A DNA stretch of 64,000 bases from assembly GCF_006540305.1 (NCBI RefSeq), contig NZ_BJOR01000001.1, positions 310,001 to 374,000 on the forward strand, read 5' to 3'. The DNA is from Streptomyces sp. 6-11-2. GTDB taxonomy: Bacteria > Actinomycetota > Actinomycetes > Streptomycetales > Streptomycetaceae. Shown one piece after another: positions 1 to 16,701 of this stretch. Each line of letters opens with the position of its first letter. Within the stretch, counting starts at the first letter, position 1. Below the pieces are notes generated by a model. That model saw only the letters and a list, made by a program, of their open reading frames with translations. It made no database searches and was not told where the DNA came from. A program made the position numbers and the translations under genes.

Positions 1-887
1 GCGCTCGTCGACCGGTCGAGGCCAGCCCGACCAGCACGCGGGTCGGGGCCTCGTGACGACGGGCGGCCAGGGCCGCCTCGCCCACGAACCCGCCGGGCTT
101 CCCGAACGCCACGACTCGGCCCAGTCCCGCATCGAACGGCGTCGTGCGGACGGTGAGTTCCTGACCGTACAACGGCATACCGGCCTCAAGGCGCAGCGTG
201 TCACGGCAGGCCAGCCCACAGGGCACCAGCCCGTGCGACGCGCCCGCCGCGCTGACGGCCCGCCAGACAGACTCCGCGTCTTCGGGACGGCAGTAGATCT
301 CGAAGCCGTCCTCGCCGGTGTAGCCGGTGCGAGCGAGCAGCACGTCGTGGCCTGCCAACCGCGCCGGGTCGATCGCGTAATACTTCAGCGACGGCACGTC
401 GACATCGGCTACGTCGCTCACGATGGCCGGTGACCTCGGTCCCTGGACCGCGATCAGCGCCCACTCGCCGGACGCGTCCCGGACCGTGGCGGCGTAGCCG
501 TCGATCCGCTCACGCAGCTGGGAGAGCACGACCAGCACGTTGCCCGCGTTGGCCACGACGAGGTACCGCTCCTCGGCCAGGCGGTAGACGACCAGGTCGT
601 CGAGTATTCCGCCGTTTTCGTGGACCCAGCATGGAGTAGCGTGCGCGGCCGACAGCGATCTTTGACGGCTCCCCGACCAGGGCGTGGTCCAGGGCCCGGC
701 CCGCCTCGGGACCGGCCAGCTCGATCTCGCCCATGTGGGAGAGATCGAAGATTCCCGCGGTGGTCCGTACGGCGTGGTGCTCGGCCAGCTCGGAGGTGTA
801 GCGCAGCGGCATGGACCAGCCGGTGAAGTCGGTGAACGATGCACCGAGCTGCGTGTGGAGGTCGTGCAGGGGTGTCTTCTTCGACAT
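1..887 (-). pseudogene. gcvT: Aminomethyltransferase (glycine cleavage T protein), frameshifted and cut by the window edge
   Basis: T protein of the glycine cleavage system: it takes the aminomethyl group from lipoyl-GcvH and makes methylene-tetrahydrofolate and ammonia. The ATG at 887 opens a frame with typical GcvT features (LHDLHTQLGASFTDFTGW, then FDLSHMGEIE). After RARYSML, near position 632, the frame is lost. GGILDDLVVYRL resumes in another frame and stays open to position 1 (ALIAVQGPRS, RTGYTGEDGFEIYC, GLACRDTLRLEAGMPLYGQE are all readable). About 295 of some 370 residues are present. A single-base deletion explains the break. It lies 31 bp after gcvP, so they are co-transcribed, and gcvH would be expected to the left of the window. 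Identity is secure; whether the frameshift is real or an assembly error is open. Confidence 0.88.
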
Positions 888-918
888 GGTGGTTTCTCTC
901 AGACCGTGACCGGTCGGG

Positions 919-3786
<2,868 letters not shown>

Positions 3787-3839
3787 GGAAGGAGGCTCCC
3801 TGCTGAGGGCACCGCGGGCGCGGCGCCGTGAATAGGTGA

Positions 3840-4027
3840 CCTCCCCGCTCTGTCATCGGTACCTGAGAGCTTCACCGCCGGGTCGGGCGGTTTGCACCGT
3901 GGGCGCAGGACGCGACGTCCTGTCTTTCCAGAGTTGCCTCACCGAAGCGGTAGTTGGGCCTGAGAGATTCTGGGGAGAGTTGCTCCTTCGGCGCCTCACC
4001 AAGGATGGGCGAGGGCTCTCCCGCTTC
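3840..4027 (-). promoter_or_regulatory. Tandem glycine riboswitch upstream of gcvP
   Basis: Read on the minus strand, the leader holds two glycine aptamers. The first runs from GGGAGAGCCC (about 4022) through GCCGAAGGAGCAACTCTCCC to AATCTCTCAGG (about 3960). The second follows a short linker with ACTCTGGAAAG, a hairpin (GGAC...GTCC), CGGCGGTGAAGCTCTCAGGT and a closing GATGACAGAG near 3848. These are the conserved core elements of glycine riboswitch aptamers, and the tandem order is the classical one. In known examples glycine binding raises expression of gcv genes. No clear intrinsic terminator is visible before the gcvP start, so control may act at translation or through Rho. The promoter should lie in 4028-4137. 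Confidence 0.93.
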
Positions 4028-4137
4028 GGTTCGAGCGGCACGATGTTCAATTGTCCAGCGTGACCGTAAGGTCGCTCTGTGGTGCCGTCGAGGCAGCTCA
4101 GTGCTTTGACGGCACCAGGTGGCCGCTGAGGTCGTGG

Positions 4138-5139
4138 TCAGGCGCGGTCTGCGGACGCCAGCGCGGGACTGGTCACCTGGTTTTTCGTCATCAGCGTGAC
4201 CAGGTCGAACACCACGGTGGCGGCAGCAACACAGGTGATCTCGGCGTGGTCGTATGCCGGAGCGACTTCGACCACGTCACCGCCGATGATATTGAGTCCG
4301 TCGAGGCTGCGGAGCAGGCGAAGCAGCTCCCGGCTGTTGAACCCGCCCATCTCCGGCGTGCCCGTCCCGGGTGCGAATGCGGGGTCGAGCACGTCGATGT
4401 CGATGGAGACGTACACCGGTGCGTCGCCCACCCGTCGCCGTACGGCGTCCACTGCCCCCTCGATCCCGATCACGTCGAGGTCCCCCGCACGGATCGCGCG
4501 GAAGCCGAACGCCTTGTCGTTCACGAGGTCCATCTGGTCGTAGATCGGTCCGCGGATGCCCAGGTGTATGGACTTGTCCTCGGCGAGCAGGCCCTCTTCG
4601 AAGGCTCGGCGGAACACCGTGCCATGGGTGATCGGGGCGTTGAAGTACGTGTCCCAGGTGTCAAGGTGCGCGTCGAAATGGACCAGCGCGATCGGACCGT
4701 ACTTGTCCTTGGCCGCCCGCAGCATAGGCAGTGCGACGGTGTGGTCACCGCCGATGGTCACGATGCGCCGGTCGGAGTGCCCCACGACGTCGCGGGCGTA
4801 GCCCTCGATCTGGGCAACCGCCTCGTCAATGCTGAAGGGTGTGCAGGGAACATCACCGGCGTCGACGACCTGGACCGCTTCCAGCGGTGCGGTGTCGAGT
4901 TCGACGTGGAACTTGGGGCGCAGGTGACGCGAGGCCTGACGGACGCCCATCGGTCCGAAGCGGGCGCCCGGGCGGTACGACGTGCCCCCGTCGAACGGCA
5001 CACCCAGGACCGCGATGTCGTAGTCGCTGACCGAGCCGATGTCGGGTATCCGAGCGAAGGTGCCCAGGCCGGCGAACCGGGGGACCTTCGTGGCGTCCAG
5101 GGCTCCGATCGGGGCGGGGCGGCTGTCGTGGTTCATCAC
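4138..5139 (-). CDS. Ureohydrolase (agmatinase / guanidino-acid hydrolase family)
   Basis: Binuclear-manganese ureohydrolase that removes urea from a guanidino compound. All six expected metal ligands are present in a 333-residue protein: His133 in GGDHT, Asp156, His158 and Asp160 in HFDAHLD, Asp257 and Asp259 in SIDIDVLDPAFAPGTGTPE. The N-terminal VLGVPFDGGTSYRPGARFGP is typical of the agmatinase/guanidinobutyrase branch. It starts 9 bp after the MFS gene stop and ends about 110 bp before the riboswitch-led gcvP gene. Substrate cannot be read from sequence. Because the downstream genes consume glycine, guanidinoacetate (giving glycine plus urea) is an attractive inference; agmatine, guanidinobutyrate, guanidinopropionate or guanidine are alternatives. 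Confidence 0.9.
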   Translation of the reverse strand: MMNHDSRPAPIGALDATKVPRFAGLGTFARIPDIGSVSDYDIAVLGVPFDGGTSYRPGARFGPMGVRQASRHLRPKFHVELDTAPLEAVQVVDAGDVPCTPFSIDEAVAQIEGYARDVVGHSDRRIVTIGGDHTVALPMLRAAKDKYGPIALVHFDAHLDTWDTYFNAPITHGTVFRRAFEEGLLAEDKSIHLGIRGPIYDQMDLVNDKAFGFRAIRAGDLDVIGIEGAVDAVRRRVGDAPVYVSIDIDVLDPAFAPGTGTPEMGGFNSRELLRLLRSLDGLNIIGGDVVEVAPAYDHAEITCVAAATVVFDLVTLMTKNQVTSPALASADRA

Positions 5140-5148
5140 GGTCTCCAG

Positions 5149-6513
5149 TCAGTTCGTAACAGTGGTGGTGGGGGAGGAGCCGGCAGGCTCGGCCGGGTGG
5201 TCGGCGCCCGCGGCGGTGTCGCTGAGCGCCCGGCCCCGGGTCTCGATGCCCCAGGCCAGCGTGATCAGGAGCCCGACGACCGACACGACGGCGCCGACGA
5301 GGAGCGGCAGACTATGGCTCTTGGCCAGGGCGAACGGCATCAGGAAGGTGGCCGCGGCCGCCCCGATGCGGGAGAACGCGGTCCCCACACCGACGGCGGT
5401 GGCTCGGACCTCGGTCGGGAACAGCTCGTTGGGGTAGACCACTTCAAGGAAGCTGGAGCCGCCCGAGGCGAGCGCGAAGACGCAGACCGCGGCGAAGGAG
5501 ACCCAGGACGGCAGTCCGGGCACCAGACCGGGGACGCCCAGGGCGACCGCGATGATCCCGAAGGACCACAGCAGCAGTGCCCGACGGCCGATCCGCTCGA
5601 CCAGCCAGAGTCCTGGGATGCCGCCGACGACGAAGAGCACGGCGAGGAAGACCTCCGCCGCGTTGCCGGTGATTCCCATGCCCGCCAGCAGGTCGGGGGC
5701 GAACGAGTACAGCGCGAACAGCGGGATCACCTGGGCGGTCCAGAAGACGCCGACGAACAGAGTGCGCTTGAGGTACGGCGGGCGGAACACCGTGGTGTAG
5801 CCAGTTCGCGCGAGTGCCGGTTCCCTGGGCAGGTCCGCGACGCCGTACTGCGGACCGAAGACCTTCTTGATCGCCCGGTCGGCGTCGTCGGGACGGCCCT
5901 TGCTGAGCAGCCAGCGCGGCGACTCCGGCGTACCGAGCCGCAGGAACAGGGTCACAAGGGCGAACACGGCCGGGCTGGCGAGCATGAACCGCCAGGCGTT
6001 CTCACCGAGTCCAGCGAGGCCCACGCCCACCACGTACGCCGCCGCGGCACCGATCGCCCAGACCACGAAGGTCGCACCGAGCATCCGACCGCGGAACCGC
6101 CGCGGAAGGTACTCCGCCAGCAGCGACGTGGCGATCGGGTAGTCGGCACCAATGGCCGCGCCAAGGAGGAAGCGCAGGAGCACCAGCTGCCAGACCTCCG
6201 TCGTGAAGGCGGACAGCACAGAGAACAGCGCGAGCGCGCCGAGGTCGGCGATGTACATGATGTGCCGGCCGATCTTGTCGGTGACGTATCCGAAGACCGC
6301 CCCACCGAAGAAGATACCGACCAGGCTGGCGGCCGCGACCAGGCCCTTGTCGCCAGCGGTCATGCCAAGGGCCGGCGTGAGCGTCGTGAAGGCGACACCG
6401 ATGATCGCGATCGCATAACCGTCGATGAACGGTCCGCCCGACGAGTAGGCCGTCAGTTTCTTGTGGAAGCGCGTCAGTGGCGCGTCGTCGATGAGATTCG
6501 ACCGAGCAGTCAT
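5149..6513 (-). CDS. MFS transporter, metabolite:H+ symporter type
   Basis: Twelve-helix major facilitator permease, 454 residues, probably proton-driven uptake of a small polar metabolite across the cytoplasmic membrane. Seen: FIDGYAIAIIGVA in helix 1, the loop 2-3 signature GYVTDKIGRH, ADYPIATSLLAEYLPRRFRGR between helices 4 and 5, and ESPRWLLSKGRPDDA in the central loop, all typical of the sugar/aromatic-acid symporter branch. The ATG at 6513 is chosen because homology begins there and AAGGA lies 8 bases upstream; the open frame continues to 6636 without family features. It is the first gene of a minus-strand operon with the ureohydrolase and is divergent from the PucR regulator, so it probably imports the ureohydrolase substrate. 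Confidence 0.9.
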   Translation of the reverse strand: MTARSNLIDDAPLTRFHKKLTAYSSGGPFIDGYAIAIIGVAFTTLTPALGMTAGDKGLVAAASLVGIFFGGAVFGYVTDKIGRHIMYIADLGALALFSVLSAFTTEVWQLVLLRFLLGAAIGADYPIATSLLAEYLPRRFRGRMLGATFVVWAIGAAAAYVVGVGLAGLGENAWRFMLASPAVFALVTLFLRLGTPESPRWLLSKGRPDDADRAIKKVFGPQYGVADLPREPALARTGYTTVFRPPYLKRTLFVGVFWTAQVIPLFALYSFAPDLLAGMGITGNAAEVFLAVLFVVGGIPGLWLVERIGRRALLLWSFGIIAVALGVPGLVPGLPSWVSFAAVCVFALASGGSSFLEVVYPNELFPTEVRATAVGVGTAFSRIGAAAATFLMPFALAKSHSLPLLVGAVVSVVGLLITLAWGIETRGRALSDTAAGADHPAEPAGSSPTTTVTN

Positions 6514-6677
6514 GGGAGGAGTCCTTGGCTCGCTGGGGCCGTGCGGAGGTGCTGCTCCATGTGTACGTCGGTGCCGAATGCGCCGTGCAGACCCACAACG
6601 CTCAAAGTTCCCGCCCGCGCTTATACATCCGCACAATGCCGCTATGCAGATAGTCAGGCCCGTTGTACCGTGACCGC

Positions 6678-8156
6678 ATGCCGATCACGGTGGGCGAGCT
6701 GCTCGAGATGCCGCACCTGCGCCTGAGACTCCACTCAGGGGCCAGCGCGCTGGACCGGCCCATTTCGTGGACACACACAACCGAGCTGCCCGAACCGTGG
6801 CGCTGGGTGGCCGGCGGCGAACTCCTCATGACGAACGGCATGCCGATCCCGCGGAGCGCGTCCGGCCAGGAGGAACTGGTCCGGCAGCTGGTCGATCACG
6901 GTGCCGCCGCGCTGGCCATCGGCGAGCAGATGTACGCCCCACCGCTGACCAAGCGGCTGGCGCGGACGAGCGAAGAACTGGGCTTCCCGGTGCTCTGGAT
7001 CGCCTACCCCATGCCGTTCGTCGCGATCTCCCGCGCAGTCGCCGAGGCGACCCTCCTGGAACAGTCGCAGCGTCTGATCCGGACCGAGCGGATCTACCAG
7101 GCGCTGCAGCAGATCTCCTCGCAGAGCTCCGGACTCAAGATGCTCACGAGTGCACTGTCCCGCGAGCTCGGCTGCGAGGTCCGGGTGTGCGACCGGGCGA
7201 CCGGCCACGACTGGTACCCGGGCGTCCCTTCGCTCCCCGCAGAGATCCGCACCGCCGTGACCGAGCGTCGCGGAAAGCTCCGCGCCGGCGTCATCGCGGT
7301 CCATCTCGATGGCGACCGTCGCGTGCTCCTGGTCGACGTGCCGACGCATCCGGACGCGGTCCTCGTCGCCCTCCCTGAGCCGGCCGAGCAGCCGGACGCG
7401 CTGCTGCTGCAACACGCCGCGACCGTGTGTGCGCTGGCGCTCTCCCAAGCCCGCTTGACCATCGAGCACGACCGCAGGACAGGTGCGGAGCTTTTGCTCC
7501 AGATCCTCGACGCACAGGTATCGCCGTCCGTGGCCCAGCGCCAGCTGGAGGAACTCGGCCTGCGGCTCGCGGAGGCGGTGTGCGTGGCGGCGCGGAACGA
7601 CCACGACCCGGACCTGCTCAGAAACGTGCACCTGAACCTGTGGCGCTCAGCCGTCAGCCACGTCACGGTGCACCGCGGTGGCACGTCGCTCACGGTTCTC
7701 CCCGACAACGCTGCCGTGCGGGTGCTGGTGCAGGCTCTCGGGCAGAGCGGCCAGGCAGGTGTCAGCGAGCTGATCGTCCGCTCTGACCGCGTGGTCGACG
7801 CAGCACGAGAGGCCACGTGGGCGCTCGACATCGCGCGGGAGCAGGGCACCCCACTGCTGCAGTACGCCGACGCCGGCCCCCTCCTCGGTCCGCGCAACCC
7901 GGCCGAGGCACGGGCACTCGTCGATCGCGTACTCGGTCGCGTTCTCGAGCTGCCGTCCGAGCATGCGAGCGAACTGCTGACGACCCTGCGGGTGTTCCTC
8001 GAAAACGGCAGGTCCTGGCAGCGCACCGCCGAAGCCCTGCACGTTCATCGACAGACGGTGCTCTATCGGGTTCGGCGCGTGGAGCAGCTGACTGGGCGGC
8101 ACGTCACGGATACCGGTGACCTGGCGGCGCTGTGGCTCGCCCTGAAGGCTCTGTGA
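6678..8156 (+). CDS. PucR-family transcriptional regulator
   Basis: Regulator of 492 residues. The N-terminal PucR domain (about residues 5-120) has ITVGELLEMPHLRLRL and the DRPISWTHTTELPEPWRWVAGGE stretch that defines the family. The C-terminal HTH_30 domain ends the protein with LRVFLENGRSWQRTAEALHVHRQTVLYRVRRV. Members often activate catabolic operons (purine, GABA, proline) on sensing a pathway compound. It is transcribed away from the MFS-ureohydrolase-gcv operon across a 164-bp divergent region, which points to control of that operon. ATG 6678 is preferred; a TTG at 6663 is also in frame. No strong ribosome-binding site is seen before either, so the mRNA may be nearly leaderless. Confidence 0.9.
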   Translation: MPITVGELLEMPHLRLRLHSGASALDRPISWTHTTELPEPWRWVAGGELLMTNGMPIPRSASGQEELVRQLVDHGAAALAIGEQMYAPPLTKRLARTSEELGFPVLWIAYPMPFVAISRAVAEATLLEQSQRLIRTERIYQALQQISSQSSGLKMLTSALSRELGCEVRVCDRATGHDWYPGVPSLPAEIRTAVTERRGKLRAGVIAVHLDGDRRVLLVDVPTHPDAVLVALPEPAEQPDALLLQHAATVCALALSQARLTIEHDRRTGAELLLQILDAQVSPSVAQRQLEELGLRLAEAVCVAARNDHDPDLLRNVHLNLWRSAVSHVTVHRGGTSLTVLPDNAAVRVLVQALGQSGQAGVSELIVRSDRVVDAAREATWALDIAREQGTPLLQYADAGPLLGPRNPAEARALVDRVLGRVLELPSEHASELLTTLRVFLENGRSWQRTAEALHVHRQTVLYRVRRVEQLTGRHVTDTGDLAALWLALKAL

Positions 8157-8836: not shown

Positions 8837-9215
8837 TCACGGTGGGGTCGGTGGTGCGAGGGTCAGTCCGGTGGCGGTGAGGCAGCCGTCGATCAGGTGT
8901 GGCCGGAGCTGGATCCTGCGTAACTCCCGGCGGAGGACACGGTCGAGGTCGTCGGGTGTGTCGAAGGCGGTGTTGGCCATGGTCCGGCGTACCAGTGACC
9001 AGACGGCCTCGACGGGGTTCAGGTCGGGTGCATACGGCGGGAGGCAGACGGTGGTGAGCCAGTCGTGCTCGGCCTCGTAGCGTTTCAGCCCGACCGCCAG
9101 GTGAGTGTTGAGATTGTCCCAGACCACCACGATCGGGCCGCCGAGCTGGATGTATGCGCGGACGAGCAGGTCGCGGTAGTCCTGCCAGGAGAAGCTCTTG
9201 CGGGCGCCGGGCCCT
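8837..9215 (-). pseudogene. IS630-family transposase, C-terminal remnant
   Basis: About 125 residues of a DDE transposase are left. IVVVWDNLNTH carries the second catalytic Asp, and PPYAPDLNPVEAVWSLVRR carries the catalytic Glu, the hallmark of IS630/Tc1-type enzymes. The N-terminal helix-turn-helix and first Asp are missing; the frame runs instead into the left end of the neighbouring IS3-type element at about 9215. It follows directly on the interrupted sensor-kinase gene, so this element (or its ancestor) probably caused that disruption and was itself later truncated by the IS3-type insertion. Confidence 0.88.
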
Positions 9216-9277
9216 ACCCCTTGATCGTGGACACCCTGATCATTGGATCGTGAAGATCCATAGGACAGGAGTTCCCG

Positions 9278-9565
9278 TTGGGGACGTCGAAGTGCTCGCC
9301 TGAGTTCCGGGCCGATGCCGTCGCGCTGTACCACGCCAGCCCGGGTGGGACGTACGCGTCGGTGGCCAAGGACGTGGGCGTCAACCACGAGACGCTGCTC
9401 ACGTGGGTTCGGGACGCCGAGCAGGCCGCCCGGCCCGGGGCCGTGGAGGCCACCGCGATGGAGAAGGAGAACCGTCAGCTGCGGGCGCGGGTGAAGGAAC
9501 TCGAGCTCGAGCGGGAGATCCTGCGGAGGGCCGCGAAGTATTTTGCGGCCGAGACCAGCTGGTGA
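9278..9565 (+). CDS. IS3-family transposase OrfA
   Basis: A 95-residue OrfA: helix-turn-helix (FRADAVALYHASPGGTYASV then AKDVGVNHETLLTWVRD) followed by a leucine-zipper-like coiled coil (ENRQLRARVKELELEREILR). It binds the element ends and pairs with OrfB. TTG is the apparent start at 9278. Its TGA stop overlaps the GTG of orfB (GTGA at 9562-9565). A usual programmed minus-one slippage would make the OrfAB fusion; no obvious A-rich slippery heptamer is seen at the overlap. OrfA itself looks intact. Confidence 0.88.
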   Translation: MGTSKCSPEFRADAVALYHASPGGTYASVAKDVGVNHETLLTWVRDAEQAARPGAVEATAMEKENRQLRARVKELELEREILRRAAKYFAAETSW

Positions 9566-10457
9566 GCAGCCGCTTCCAGTTCGTCGACGATCATCGTGGC
9601 CCCTTCGGCGTCAAGCGGCTGTGTCGGATGCTGCAGGTCTCGCGTTCCGGCTTCTACCGGCACCTGGCCGGCGCGCAAGCGCGGGCCGACCGGGCACGGG
9701 CCGATGCCGAGCTCGCTGAGCGCATCACCGAAATCCACCAGGAGTCCGACGGCACCTACGATCCCCGCGCGTCACCGCCGAGCTCCGGGACGGCGGCGAG
9801 CGGGTCAATCACAAGCGGGTGGCACGCGTCATGAGGAGGTTCAACATCGTCGGGTTCCACCTGCGCAAGAAGGTCCGCACCACCATCCCCGAACCCTCTG
9901 CGACGCCGGTGCCGGACCTCCTGCAGCGCGACTTCACCGCGACCACGCCGAACACTCGCTACGTGGGCGACATAACCTACCTGCCGGTGGGAGGTGGCCA
10001 ATTCCTTTATCTGGCAACGGTGTTGGACCTGTCCTCGAGACGACTGGCGGGCTGGTCGATCGCCGACCACATGCGCACCGAGCTGGTCACCGACGCGCTC
10101 AAGGCCGCGGCCGCGGCCCGGGGTGCCGACGGCCTGCGCGGGGCGATCTTCCACAGCGACAACGGGTCGCAATACGTCTCGAAGGAGTTCGCCCAGGTCT
10201 GCGGCGAACTCGGCGTGATCAGGTCACGTGGCGCGGTGGGCACGAGCGCGGACAACGCCGCCGCGGAATCGCTGAACGCGACCATGAAAAGAGAGACGCT
10301 CCAGGGGAGAAAACGGTGGAACGGGGCCCGTGAGGCCCGGCTCGGGGTCTTCCGATGGGCAACTCGCTACAACACCAGGCGAAGGCACTCCCGCCTCGGC
10401 CAGATCAGCCCGATCACTTACGAACAGCGATCAACTACGCTGGCCACCGCCGCGTAA
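9562..10457 (+). pseudogene. IS3-family transposase OrfB, frameshifted
   Basis: DDE integrase-type catalytic subunit. The first part reads FVDDHRGPFGVKRLCRMLQV to HQESDGTY; near 9770 the frame breaks and continues one register over as VTAELRDGGERVNHKRVARV. The core then shows RYVGDITYLPV (first Asp), IFHSDNGSQY (second Asp) and NAAAESLNATMKRE (catalytic Glu). Restoring one base (TACGGATCC in place of TACGATCC) would join the frames, so a one-base deletion is the likely lesion. All catalytic residues lie after the break. The open second frame from 9819 might give a truncated product, but it lacks the N-terminal domain. Confidence 0.85.
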
Positions 10458-10636
10458 CCGGCTGGAACTCCGGCCTGGGCGCCTTCACCCAGGCATTCGA
10501 CAGTGACGACCTCGACGCCTCCGCGCTGATGCTGCCCATCGTCGGCTTCTTGCCACCGCACGACCCCCGTGTACAGTCCACCGTGCTGGCCATCGCCACC
10601 CAACTGACCGACCGCAACGGCCTGGTCCGGCGCTAG
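10454..10636 (+). pseudogene. Remnant of a GH15 (glucoamylase/trehalase-like) protein
   Basis: About 60 residues, with FTQAFDSDDLDASALMLPIV followed by GFLPPHDPRVQSTVLAIATQ and LTDRNGLV. That is the conserved segment of bacterial GH15 family proteins in which LDAS and GFLPPDDPR are recurrent. It is fused in frame to the 3' end of the IS3 orfB and stops at 10636, where an IS5-type fragment begins on the other strand. It has neither start nor catalytic region, so it is a stub left by insertions and deletions. Confidence 0.7.
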
Positions 10637-10816
10637 GGTCTTCCAGGCGCCGTAGCGTTCCGGCTGGTCACGCCACGGGACACCGGTGCGGATCCGGAAC
10701 AGGATCCCGTTGAGCACCGTGCGGTGGTCGTTCCATCGGCCTCCCCGCCTGCCTGAAGACGGCAGGCGCCGCTCCAGCAGCGACCACTCGCGATTCGTCA
10801 GATCCCCCCGACCCAT
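10637..10816 (-). pseudogene. IS5/IS4-type transposase, N-terminal remnant
   Basis: Starts with ATG at 10816 and reads MGRGDLTNREWSLLERRLPS, then WNDHRTVLNGILFRIRTGVP and WRDQPERYGAWKTL. This is the N-terminal DUF4096-type domain common to Streptomyces IS5-group transposases. The protein loses similarity after about 60 residues, where the frame enters the GH15 remnant. The DDE catalytic region is missing from the window. Confidence 0.85.
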
Positions 10817-11488
10817 GGCCGAACCAACGAGCGATCGGTCAGAAAGTCACATGATCCGCCGGACAGTGCCTAGCCGTCCCACTGGCTTCGCGCATCCCGC
10901 CTGATCCAGAGCGAGCCCTTCTCCGCCTCCAACCTCGCCCAGTTCACGATCAAGATCCGGACCATATACGGGCCGGAGACAGCCCTCCGTGCTTGAGAGC
11001 TGGCATTCGTACTGGTCAGAGCCATGTGCGCCGTGTACCACCAGCAGACGAAGAACCTCCTGGTGGCACTCAGACGCAGTGTTGAGACGCGGCACTTCGT
11101 ACATCGAGCCAAGAAGATCGGCGCTCACCAGCCAGCAACTACGCACAACAGGGCACGGTGAGCGCCACGTTCACGCGACGACGGGCGGCGCAACCGTCCG
11201 CCAGGTCAGCACTCGTCCGACCGCTACCCAACCTGCAAAGACCGCGGCATGCGACAGAGCTGCGAAGAGCGCCCCAACCGAATCTGACGGGCTGTCAGCA
11301 AAGTTAGCATTAGGTCAGCAAAGGCACTGCCACAGCCGCCCACAGACGGCCACACCATGGAATCACCCGCCACCCCCACTCAGGTCCGCAACCCGCTCAG
11401 CCGTCCCTCCACGAATGATCGAAAAACGGTAGGCAGTACCCAACCGCCTCCCACCCGCCAGCCGCCGACACTCAGTCATTTCCGCAGG
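10817..11488. other. Gene-free stretch after the IS cluster
   Basis: No convincing gene. Base composition is lower in G+C than the surroundings and open frames have poor codon bias. One notable item is a direct repeat GTCAGCAAAG at 11294-11303 and 11314-11323, exactly 20 bp apart, lying downstream of the pirin gene stop. A short coding-like text (NLAQFTIKIRTIYGPETALR, plus strand about 10930-10990) ends in a stop and could be a further decayed gene tail; it was not recognised. Confidence 0.5.
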
Positions 11489-14558: not shown

Positions 14559-15203
14559 ATGGCTTCCCCCCGTGCGCGTACATCCCTGGCCGAGCAGGTC
14601 GAGGAACTCCTCGCCGACGACGGCCCGTTGCCCATCGTCGCCGCCGGAGACCCGGTGCTGCGGCGCGCCGCCGAGCCGTTCGACGGCCAGCTGGAGCCCG
14701 AGCTGCTGTCCCGCCTCATTCGGGCGATGCGCCTGACCATGCACGCGGCACCGGGCGTGGGACTGGCCGCGCCGCAGGTCGGGGTGGGGCTGCGGATCGC
14801 GGTCGTGGAGGACCCGGCACCGGTGCCGGACGAGGTGCGAGTGGCGCGCGGACGGGTACCGCTCCCCTTCCGCGTGCTGGTCAATCCGTCCTACGAGGCC
14901 GTCGGCACCGCGCGCGCCGCGTTCTACGAGGGCTGCCTGAGCGTCCCTGGCTGGCAGGCCGTGGTGGCAAGGCACGCCGAGGTGCGCCTGCGGGCCCTGG
15001 ACGAGCACGGGCGCGCGGTGGACGAGCTGCTCTCGGGCTGGCCCGCCCGGATCGTCCAGCACGAGACCGACCACCTCGGCGGCACCCTCTACCTCGACCG
15101 CGCCGAACTCCGTTCCCTCTCCTCCAGCGACGCGATGACGCGCCGCTGGACCCAGCCGACCCCGGCGGAGGCCGCGCGGGCGCTCGGCTTCGAGTTGCCG
15201 TAG
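14559..15203 (+). CDS. def: Peptide deformylase
   Basis: Removes the N-formyl group from nascent proteins; cytoplasmic metalloenzyme. All three signatures are present in 214 residues: GVGLAAPQVG at 66-75, EGCLSVPG at 124-131 with metal ligand Cys126, and QHETDH at 167-172 with ligands His168 and His172 and catalytic Glu169. About 25 extra N-terminal residues compared with the E. coli enzyme are common in actinobacterial paralogues. ATG 14559 directly follows an in-frame GTG at 14556; either could start. Streptomyces genomes carry several def genes, so this is probably an accessory copy. It converges on the oxidoreductase gene. Confidence 0.95.
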   Translation: MASPRARTSLAEQVEELLADDGPLPIVAAGDPVLRRAAEPFDGQLEPELLSRLIRAMRLTMHAAPGVGLAAPQVGVGLRIAVVEDPAPVPDEVRVARGRVPLPFRVLVNPSYEAVGTARAAFYEGCLSVPGWQAVVARHAEVRLRALDEHGRAVDELLSGWPARIVQHETDHLGGTLYLDRAELRSLSSSDAMTRRWTQPTPAEAARALGFELP

Positions 15204-15270
15204 GCGAGCACCGGCGCACCGCCCCCGCGGGAACTGCCGGAAAAGCCGGGGCGGTTCCCGGGGCGCATGG

Positions 15271-16701
15271 TCAGCCCCGGTAGGCCTCCAGCAGGCGGAG
15301 CCACACCTCGCTGATCGTCGGGTAGGACGGGACCGCGTGCCAGAGGCGGCTGATCGGAACCTCTCCGGCGACGGCGACGGACGCCGAGTGGAGCAGTTCG
15401 CCGACGCCGGGGCCGACGAAAGTGACACCGCGCAGGATCTCTGCGTCGAGGTCGACGACCATGCGGGCGCGGCCGCGGTACCCGTCGCCGTACAGGCCGG
15501 CCCCGGCGACCGAGGAGAGGTCGACGTCGACGGCCCGGACGCGGTGCCCGGCCTGTTCGGCTTCGGCCAGGGACAGGCCCACGGCTGCGGCCTCCGGGTC
15601 GGTGAAGACGACCTGTGGTACGGCGTGGTGGTCGGCGGTGGCGGCGTGCGCGCCCCATGGATCCGTCTCCAACAGGGGCACACCGGCCGCACGGGCGCCG
15701 ATCGTGTCGCCCGCGATCCGGGCCTGGTACTTGCCCTGGTGGGTGAGGAGCGCGCGGTGGTTCACGTCGCCGCACGCGTACAGCCAGGTGCTGCCCAGCA
15801 CGCGCAGGCTGTCGTCGACCGGCAGCCAGGAGCCGGGCTCCATGCCCACCGTCTCCAGGCCGACGTCGTCGGTGCGCGGCGCGCGCCCGGTGGCGAAGAG
15901 GATCTCGTCCGCCTCGACACGGTCGCCGTTGCCGGTGACGGCCACGACGGTGCCGTTCTCGCGGGCGACCGACTCCACCGCGGTGCCGGTGCGGATGTCG
16001 GCGCCCGCCTCCGTGAGGGCGTCGGCGACCAGTTCGCCGGCGAAGGGTTCCATGCGCGGCAGCAGCCCCTTGCCGCGGACCAGGACGGTGACCTGTGCGC
16101 CGAGCGCCTGGTAGACGGTGGCCATCTCGGTGGCGACGACACCGCCGCCCACGATGATCAGCCGCTCGGGCACCTGTTCGGAGCTGGTGGCCTCGCGGCT
16201 GGTCCACGGCTTGACGGCGTCGAGCCCGGGAAGCTCCGGCAGCCGGGCGCGGGTTCCGGTGCAGACGGCGACGGCGTGCCGGGCGGTCAGCGTCCTGCGC
16301 GTGCCGTCGGGGCCGTCGACCGTGACCGTACGCGGACCGGCCAGCCGGCCGTGCCCGCGGTGGAGGTCGGCGCCGATGCTGTCCAGCCACCGCACCTGGC
16401 CGTCGTCGTGCCAGTGCGAGGTGTACACGTCCCGGCGGGCGAGGACCGCGGTGGCGTCGAGAGGGCCGCGCACCGCCTGGCTCAGACCCGGCAGGCGGCG
16501 GGCGTCGGCGCGGGCGATGACCGGGCGCAGCAGGGCCTTGCTCGGCATGCACGCCCAGTACGAGCACTCGCCGCCGACCAGTTCGCTCTCCACGATCGCG
16601 GTGGACAGGCCGGCCGCCCGGGTGCGGTCGGCCACGTTCTCCCCCACGGGTCCGGCGCCCAGCACCACGACGTCGTACGCGATGGTTTCCGTTTCGGTCA
16701 T
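15271..16701 (-). CDS. FAD-dependent pyridine nucleotide-disulfide oxidoreductase, mercuric-reductase-like
   Basis: Flavoprotein of 476 residues. Seen: FAD site DVVVLGAGPVGENVADRTRA, redox-active disulfide GGECSYWACMPSKALLRP (C-x4-C intact), NAD(P)H site RLIIVGGGVVATEMATVYQA, second FAD contact WLYACGDVN, and a dimerisation domain. In glutathione and lipoamide reductases the C-terminus has HPT-x-SE with a catalytic His; here the text is SYPTISE, with Tyr at that position, as in mercuric-reductase-like proteins. The natural substrate is unknown. ATG 16701 is where family similarity starts. It is divergent from a thioredoxin gene, which suggests a shared redox-stress role but not proof of partnership. 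Confidence 0.9.
   Translation of the reverse strand: MTETETIAYDVVVLGAGPVGENVADRTRAAGLSTAIVESELVGGECSYWACMPSKALLRPVIARADARRLPGLSQAVRGPLDATAVLARRDVYTSHWHDDGQVRWLDSIGADLHRGHGRLAGPRTVTVDGPDGTRRTLTARHAVAVCTGTRARLPELPGLDAVKPWTSREATSSEQVPERLIIVGGGVVATEMATVYQALGAQVTVLVRGKGLLPRMEPFAGELVADALTEAGADIRTGTAVESVARENGTVVAVTGNGDRVEADEILFATGRAPRTDDVGLETVGMEPGSWLPVDDSLRVLGSTWLYACGDVNHRALLTHQGKYQARIAGDTIGARAAGVPLLETDPWGAHAATADHHAVPQVVFTDPEAAAVGLSLAEAEQAGHRVRAVDVDLSSVAGAGLYGDGYRGRARMVVDLDAEILRGVTFVGPGVGELLHSASVAVAGEVPISRLWHAVPSYPTISEVWLRLLEAYRG

Follow-up and report, generated by a model that had tools for sequence, protein, structure and literature searches.

Streptomyces sp. 6-11-2 carries a ureohydrolase that probably hydrolyses guanidinoacetate, as read from the genes and RNA around it, and the glycine so formed would switch on the genes for its own breakdown. 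The host is a soil Streptomyces with a genome of 8.73 Mb, and the window, the whole 64-kb stretch of DNA that was analysed, lies at C1:310001-374000. The block sits at the left end of the window and contains the following features:

6663..8156, plus strand: divergent PucR-family regulator (PF07905 and PF13556; an ATG at about 6681 is also possible)
5149..6513, minus strand: MFS permease (PF00083/PF07690; stop at 5149)
4138..5139, minus strand: ureohydrolase, proposed guanidinoacetate hydrolase (PF00491, 309 bits)
4080..4117, minus strand: terminator-like hairpin without a T run, between ureohydrolase and riboswitch
3938..4033, minus strand: glycine riboswitch aptamer 1 (RF00504)
3848..3933, minus strand: likely glycine riboswitch aptamer 2, diverged (alignment of eight leaders)
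919..3786, minus strand: gcvP, glycine decarboxylase, second operon-type copy (TIGR00461, 1314 bits; tree of 22 gcvP)
627..887, minus strand: gcvT, first piece, before the frameshift
1..625, minus strand: gcvT, second piece, in another frame, continuing leftwards beyond window base 1

The initial annotation had named an MFS permease, a ureohydrolase with all six metal ligands, gcvP and a divergent PucR regulator, and profile matches bear out each of these calls. It had also named gcvT, which does lie on the same minus strand but is not intact: a frameshift near window position 625 breaks it into two pieces that lie in different frames (window 1-887; 9786-10887 in locus L004 of the same genome). 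The named genes are all part of the block, but the block is larger than described: beyond the left end of the window the operon goes on with gcvH, glyA, lipA, a tandem glycine riboswitch (Rfam; L004 7138-7044 and 7038-6951) and, directly behind these aptamers (L004 6951-7138), purU for formyltetrahydrofolate deformylase. The open reading frame of the MFS permease extends to a TTG at 6636, with the ATG at 6513 as the likelier start, and the permease is separated from the ureohydrolase by 9 bp. PucR scores 193 bits against the PmfR model NF045769, under the cut-off of 800.

Either flank of the block carries transposase genes or remnants, at window 8837-10816 (DDE_3, HTH_Tnp_1 with rve, DUF4096) and L004 5333-6130 (DDE_Tnp_1), which suggests a mobile or rearranged island. 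In the gap between PucR and the MFS permease (window 6513-6690), a TTGTGCG...ATAA-like stretch is visible by eye and recurs in the Rhodococcus-like loci L109, L112 and L113; it is a possible promoter or operator. A search for inverted repeats as a PucR operator in this and eight other divergent gaps found none common to them.

In the proposed pathway, the MFS permease would import a guanidino acid, and the Mn-type ureohydrolase would split guanidinoacetate into urea and glycine. From the class of the riboswitch, rising glycine would bind the tandem aptamers and lead to expression of gcvP-gcvT-gcvH-glyA-lipA. Glycine cleavage and serine hydroxymethyltransferase would convert glycine to CO2, NH3, one-carbon units and serine, while PurU, behind its own tandem glycine riboswitch, would free folate. 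PucR is probably a substrate sensor that controls the permease and the ureohydrolase. Induction of the gcv part would be product-driven, because glycine would be its activator.

The riboswitch had been described as tandem. Aptamer 1 stands by its Rfam match (67 bits against a gathering score of 32, E 9e-12), whereas the second aptamer is visible by alignment only, and relaxing Rfam to E<=10 across 3700-4200 brings up no match to it. With eight leaders aligned (those of the operon gcvP, core gcvP and purU of this genome, of L010, L011 and L012, and two from L090), CTCTGGA, CTCTCAGG and GACAGAG are kept in 8/8 rows in the stretch behind aptamer 1. This conserved stretch at about 3933-3848 is likely a diverged second aptamer, in a tandem arrangement.

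Within the 104-nt gap between the ureohydrolase and aptamer 1 lies a hairpin whose outer stem is GC-rich and 10 bp long; the interval 4030-4140 folds at -42.7 kcal/mol (z -3.84). A terminator pattern scan of this gap found none, and the stem has no T run behind it. The hairpin in this gap may part the ureohydrolase and gcvP transcripts, so that the block may yield one transcript or two. The corresponding gap is 87 nt in L090 and 34-36 nt in L010-L012; the latter therefore have no room for such a hairpin plus a promoter.

Recurrence of this arrangement was surveyed in 100 loci, 80 of them in named genomes among the matches listed for the ureohydrolase alignment and 20 as stretches from further genomes; 45 of the 100 bear Pelagibacter-type names, and many flanks are short. 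Within the examined flanks, gcvP occurs at four loci (L010, L011, L012, L090), each of which also has gcvT, gcvH, glyA and sdaA. The flanks of L010-L012 contain lpdA, and those of L011 and L012 also lipA. These Mycobacteriaceae-like loci were found by searches with the ureohydrolase alone. The gene order of the Streptomyces block, which the initial annotation had suggested seeking in other genomes, was found in L090 with cycA inserted: PucR, MFS permease, ureohydrolase, riboswitch, cycA, riboswitch, gcvP, gcvT, gcvH, glyA and sdaA (cycA by NF008272, 778 bits against a cut-off of 732). An MFS permease that is 58-66% identical adjoins the ureohydrolase in L013, L019, L022, L023, L090 and L109-L113; an APC permease takes its place in L011 and L012.

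Within the narrow clade of the ureohydrolase, which has modest support (83 in one tree, 87/84 in another), Rfam was run on 23 loci: the Streptomyces locus itself, L009-L013, L018, L030, L089-L091, L093, L109-L114 and L154-L158. A glycine riboswitch directly follows the ureohydrolase in nine of them (the Streptomyces locus; L010, L011, L012, L090; L154, L155, L156, L158). The gene behind it is gcvP in Streptomyces and three Mycobacteriaceae, cycA with gcvP in L090, which comes from a relative of these Mycobacteriaceae, and glyA in four Nocardioides-like loci. The other 14 loci, among them L009 at 84% identity, gave no glycine riboswitch by Rfam in the examined flank. None was found in five loci of neighbouring clades (L014, L016, L019, L020, L021) or beside seven paralogues at 54-61% identity (L100, L102-L106, L108). 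The contrast of 9/23 inside the clade with 0/12 outside it gives a Fisher p of 0.015, which serves as a guide only, the loci being related. Because both the downstream gene (gcvP, cycA, glyA) and the transporter (MFS, APC, NCS1) vary, glycine is the shared term. The initial annotation had proposed that the ureohydrolase makes glycine, which then switches on its own degradation; the recurrent context in 9/23 loci and three lineages supports this, and the broken gcvT counts against it.

The ureohydrolase is sparsely distributed, which counts against the proposed reading. At E<=1e-128 it occurs in 12/394 genomes of the class and in 1/392 of the genus, a count that stands beside a genome of the same genus (G348) found in the class draw and not among the matches of the own-genus draw. 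Other draws gave 9/301, 6/297 and 5/304. A plasmid search for the ureohydrolase returned five records, the best at 65.9% identity.

A second configuration is found in a Nocardioides-like family, in which 5/304 genomes carry the ureohydrolase (L154-L158). This search was not blind, as the family was picked because co-location matches of gcvP and ureohydrolase pointed there. In L154, L155, L156 and L158, one strand carries PucR, a GMC oxidoreductase, a small ORF, an aldehyde dehydrogenase, an NCS1 permease, the ureohydrolase, a glycine riboswitch and glyA. Both aptamers lie above the gathering score in three of these loci and one does in L156; L157 keeps the upstream part, with neither riboswitch nor glyA in its flank. 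This configuration is the strongest evidence for glycine as product, because here the ureohydrolase and the RNA are the same and the glycine-using enzyme behind them is a different one. The glyA may be a core gene before which the cluster was inserted. Genomic context lends strong support to glycine as the product of the ureohydrolase. Urea release is a family trait of ureohydrolases, and guanidinoacetate would be the simplest substrate because it accounts for both a glycine product and the release of urea.

A GMC oxidoreductase and an aminobutyraldehyde-type aldehyde dehydrogenase lie upstream of the ureohydrolase in L154-L158 and L009, and Sciscionella also has a GMC oxidoreductase and an aldehyde dehydrogenase there. 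These two enzymes are a possible alcohol-to-guanidino-acid route. Guanidinoethanol is obtainable from lombricine, the earthworm phosphagen. We tentatively propose, as a speculative extension, a modular actinobacterial route from guanidinoethanol through guanidinoacetaldehyde and guanidinoacetate to glycine and urea, in which a glycine-sensing RNA would have been recruited more than once and would control whichever glycine-using genes lie behind it.

On a ureohydrolase tree of 29 rows the riboswitch label requires five changes, three of them forced by starred branches, and a one-clade tree for the riboswitch-linked enzymes is rejected at p 4e-5 with six rows of unknown context left out. The label is nonetheless clustered, with 5/500 shuffles as low. 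By this tree, the riboswitch-linked ureohydrolases are not one clade. There may have been one ancestral gain of the association followed by several losses, or the ureohydrolase may have been inserted before existing riboswitch operons.

Linkage between the ureohydrolase and the operon-type gcvP is also visible from contig sizes. When 120 listed ureohydrolases are compared with the 120 listed gcvPs closest to the operon-type copy, six pairs fall on contigs of identical size; shifting the lists by 1-500 gives 0.083 pairs on average and at most 2. The comparison uses the longest contig of each protein cluster, so the pairs show co-location and not adjacency. They comprise the 8.2-Mb chromosome of NBC_01618 and contigs of size 64,564 (NPDC057611), 92,618 (Nocardioides sp. 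AN3), 134,551 (Phycicoccus), 218,070 and 224,658 (N. maradonensis), and organism names agree in five of the six, which are all that carry one. Of the other organisms named in the ureohydrolase list, most are absent from the top 120 gcvP rows. Four Rhodococcus-like genomes have ureohydrolase and gcvP on one contig, 19, 19, 43 and 103 kb apart, and a fifth has them on different contigs; the Rhodococcus-like ureohydrolases group with a R. jostii row in the tree.

The block is the second gcv set of its genome, because another gcvP (at 6.06 Mb), another gcvT (unbroken and above cut-off, at 2.05 Mb) and two further ureohydrolases are present elsewhere. Within the operon, P and H are above cut-off and T is frameshifted, so that an intact set of P, T and H is lacking. 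The frameshift may be real or an assembly error, and the unbroken gcvT could stand in for the operon copy. The operon gcvP is 68% identical to the core gcvP of the same genome. In a tree of 22 gcvP sequences it groups with the second copies from Mycobacteriaceae-like genomes, separate from the core copies of these genomes and its own (93/88). By this identity and grouping, the operon gcvP is not a recent copy of the core gene. The core gcvP likewise has a glycine riboswitch.

Operons of the second gcv type also occur without a ureohydrolase in the examined flank (L146, L147). In L146 (M. agri), the operon follows genes for an NCS1-like permease and a RidA-like protein (both by eye), a cyclase and an M20 hydrolase. 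A Rhodococcus-like genome has its second gcv operon near a riboswitch-led unit (L144 72-3121), in which genes for a DUF5058 protein, a family-less ORF and an M20 amidohydrolase follow a tandem glycine riboswitch; this is possibly another glycine-yielding or glycine-transport unit. The second gcv operon seems to be a general module for burning glycine, with various glycine-yielding feeders attached to it.

The PF00491 match and six metal ligands place the enzyme in the ureohydrolase superfamily. Residues H133, D156, H158, D160, D247 and D249, which we take to be the metal ligands of the family, are invariant in 32 aligned homologues, as are R74 and H78. The nearest ureohydrolase among the matches listed is that of Streptomyces sp. 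NBC_01618, at 94% identity. By sequence, the closest solved relatives are the 3-guanidinopropionase GpuA and the guanidinobutyrase GbuA of Pseudomonas aeruginosa (3nip, 3nio), followed by proclavaminate amidinohydrolase and then the agmatinases. GpuA and GbuA share the sequence family, the metal ligands and a capping arginine with the Streptomyces enzyme, and His78 is shared with GpuA in the HMMER alignment; the Streptomyces enzyme differs in its context, a glycine riboswitch with gcv or glyA, and in the loop after the capping arginine, which carries His78 and is one residue longer than in both. The longer cap could perhaps suit a shorter acid. R74 aligns with GbuA R72, counted by hand along the alignment, as expected of a guanidino-acid hydrolase. 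According to PMC9772407, GbuA R72 lies above the active site of the adjacent subunit and could contact the substrate carboxylate there; the paper also describes human GDAH, in one variant with the same arginine, as inactive on guanidinoacetate. The capping arginine alone proves nothing, because human GDAH does not use guanidinoacetate.

Several other candidate marks were set aside. Capping-loop length was rejected as a tie to GpuA, since the loop is one residue shorter in GpuA and GbuA alike, and the motif DTWDTYF was rejected as a mark of specificity, being common to gcv-linked enzymes, paralogues and SAR11 homologues. A predicted ureohydrolase structure was not used (mean pLDDT 64.5; pocket loops 51-64, 74-89 and 161-169 below 50). 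Guanidine was rejected as substrate, as an Rfam scan of the 64-kb window and L004 gave no guanidine riboswitch that reached gathering score.

Further ureohydrolases were noted in passing. In L030 (10001-10958, Saccharopolyspora spinosa), the gene is found in two overlapping tblastn pieces and is perhaps broken. The mostly SAR11-like loci L031-L088 have 55-59% identical ureohydrolases beside one conserved gene family in 45/53 loci, aldehyde dehydrogenase-like by eye. In L115, L118, L120 and L121 (f17 genomes), the ureohydrolase adjoins an ORF whose start resembles cytosine deaminase and whose later part resembles polysaccharide deacetylase, as tested in L115 and by eye in the other three; the substrate here is maybe a cyclic guanidine.

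The kinship with GpuA and GbuA also favours a longer guanidino acid as substrate, 3-guanidinopropionate or 4-guanidinobutyrate, giving beta-alanine or GABA, with gcv a neighbour only as one of the catabolic genes on a mobile island. The transposase genes or remnants flanking the block and the second-type gcv operons without a ureohydrolase fit this account, as does the aminobutyraldehyde-type aldehyde dehydrogenase beside the homologues, which is expected for a guanidinobutyrate route; guanidinobutyrate is made from guanidinobutyraldehyde. It is nevertheless unlikely, because the ureohydrolase gene recurs in front of a glycine riboswitch in three lineages, with three different glycine genes, and because no GABA or beta-alanine aminotransferase is found among the annotated genes of the operon. 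The enzyme might instead cleave another glycine-yielding amidine such as formiminoglycine, as HutG cleaves formiminoglutamate, with PurU in one-carbon balance. HutG belongs to the same superfamily (its model gives 123.7 bits, under the cut-off of 229), PucR regulators are often tied to purine breakdown, and purU is in the operon. However, the best solved relatives release urea, the annotated operon genes include no hut gene, and the likelier HutG is the third ureohydrolase of the genome (L006 8533-9537, C2), which makes this reading improbable. That C2 ureohydrolase lies about 5 kb from a HutH-like ORF at 14824-16413 (by eye) and may be HutG. A plain agmatinase making putrescine, as in the automatic annotation and in keeping with TIGR01230 (238.6 against 174.3) and NF002564 (311.3 against 302), is very improbable, given an invariant arginine where agmatinases 7lol and 4dz4 have the small residue alanine, a sequence closer to the guanidino-acid hydrolases and no polyamine gene among the annotated operon genes.

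Guanidinoacetate hydrolysis is thus the preferred reading, and its parts have known counterparts. Operons of gcv under a glycine riboswitch are known in Streptomyces and other bacteria. They share the riboswitch family and target gene with the block described here, which differs in that its gcv operon is a second and divergent one, contains glyA, lipA and purU, and is coupled to a ureohydrolase and a permease. Clusters of the guanidine hydrolase GdmH are also known; GdmH shares the ureohydrolase superfamily, but its guanidine riboswitch has no counterpart at gathering score in the window or L004. The proposed reaction, guanidinoacetate plus water to glycine plus urea, is that of guanidinoacetase (glycocyaminase, EC 3.5.3.2), to which we know of no assigned sequence. 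No paper joining guanidinoacetate with a glycine riboswitch, agmatinase with a glycine riboswitch, or guanidinoacetate with ureohydrolase and glycine cleavage was found in the open-licence literature. The parts are known, and the coupling of ureohydrolase, glycine riboswitch and glycine genes was not found in that literature. A 1969 report on guanidinoacetase concerns Penicillium roqueforti, as cited in the references of PMC7439472.

The block offers a specific sequence as candidate for guanidinoacetate hydrolase; to our knowledge this activity has an EC number and no gene. If the reading is true, the actinobacterial clade now called agmatinase would be renamed. It also suggests that a general product-sensing riboswitch may be reused as a catabolic inducer, the signal for the later steps being the product of the enzyme and not the substrate.
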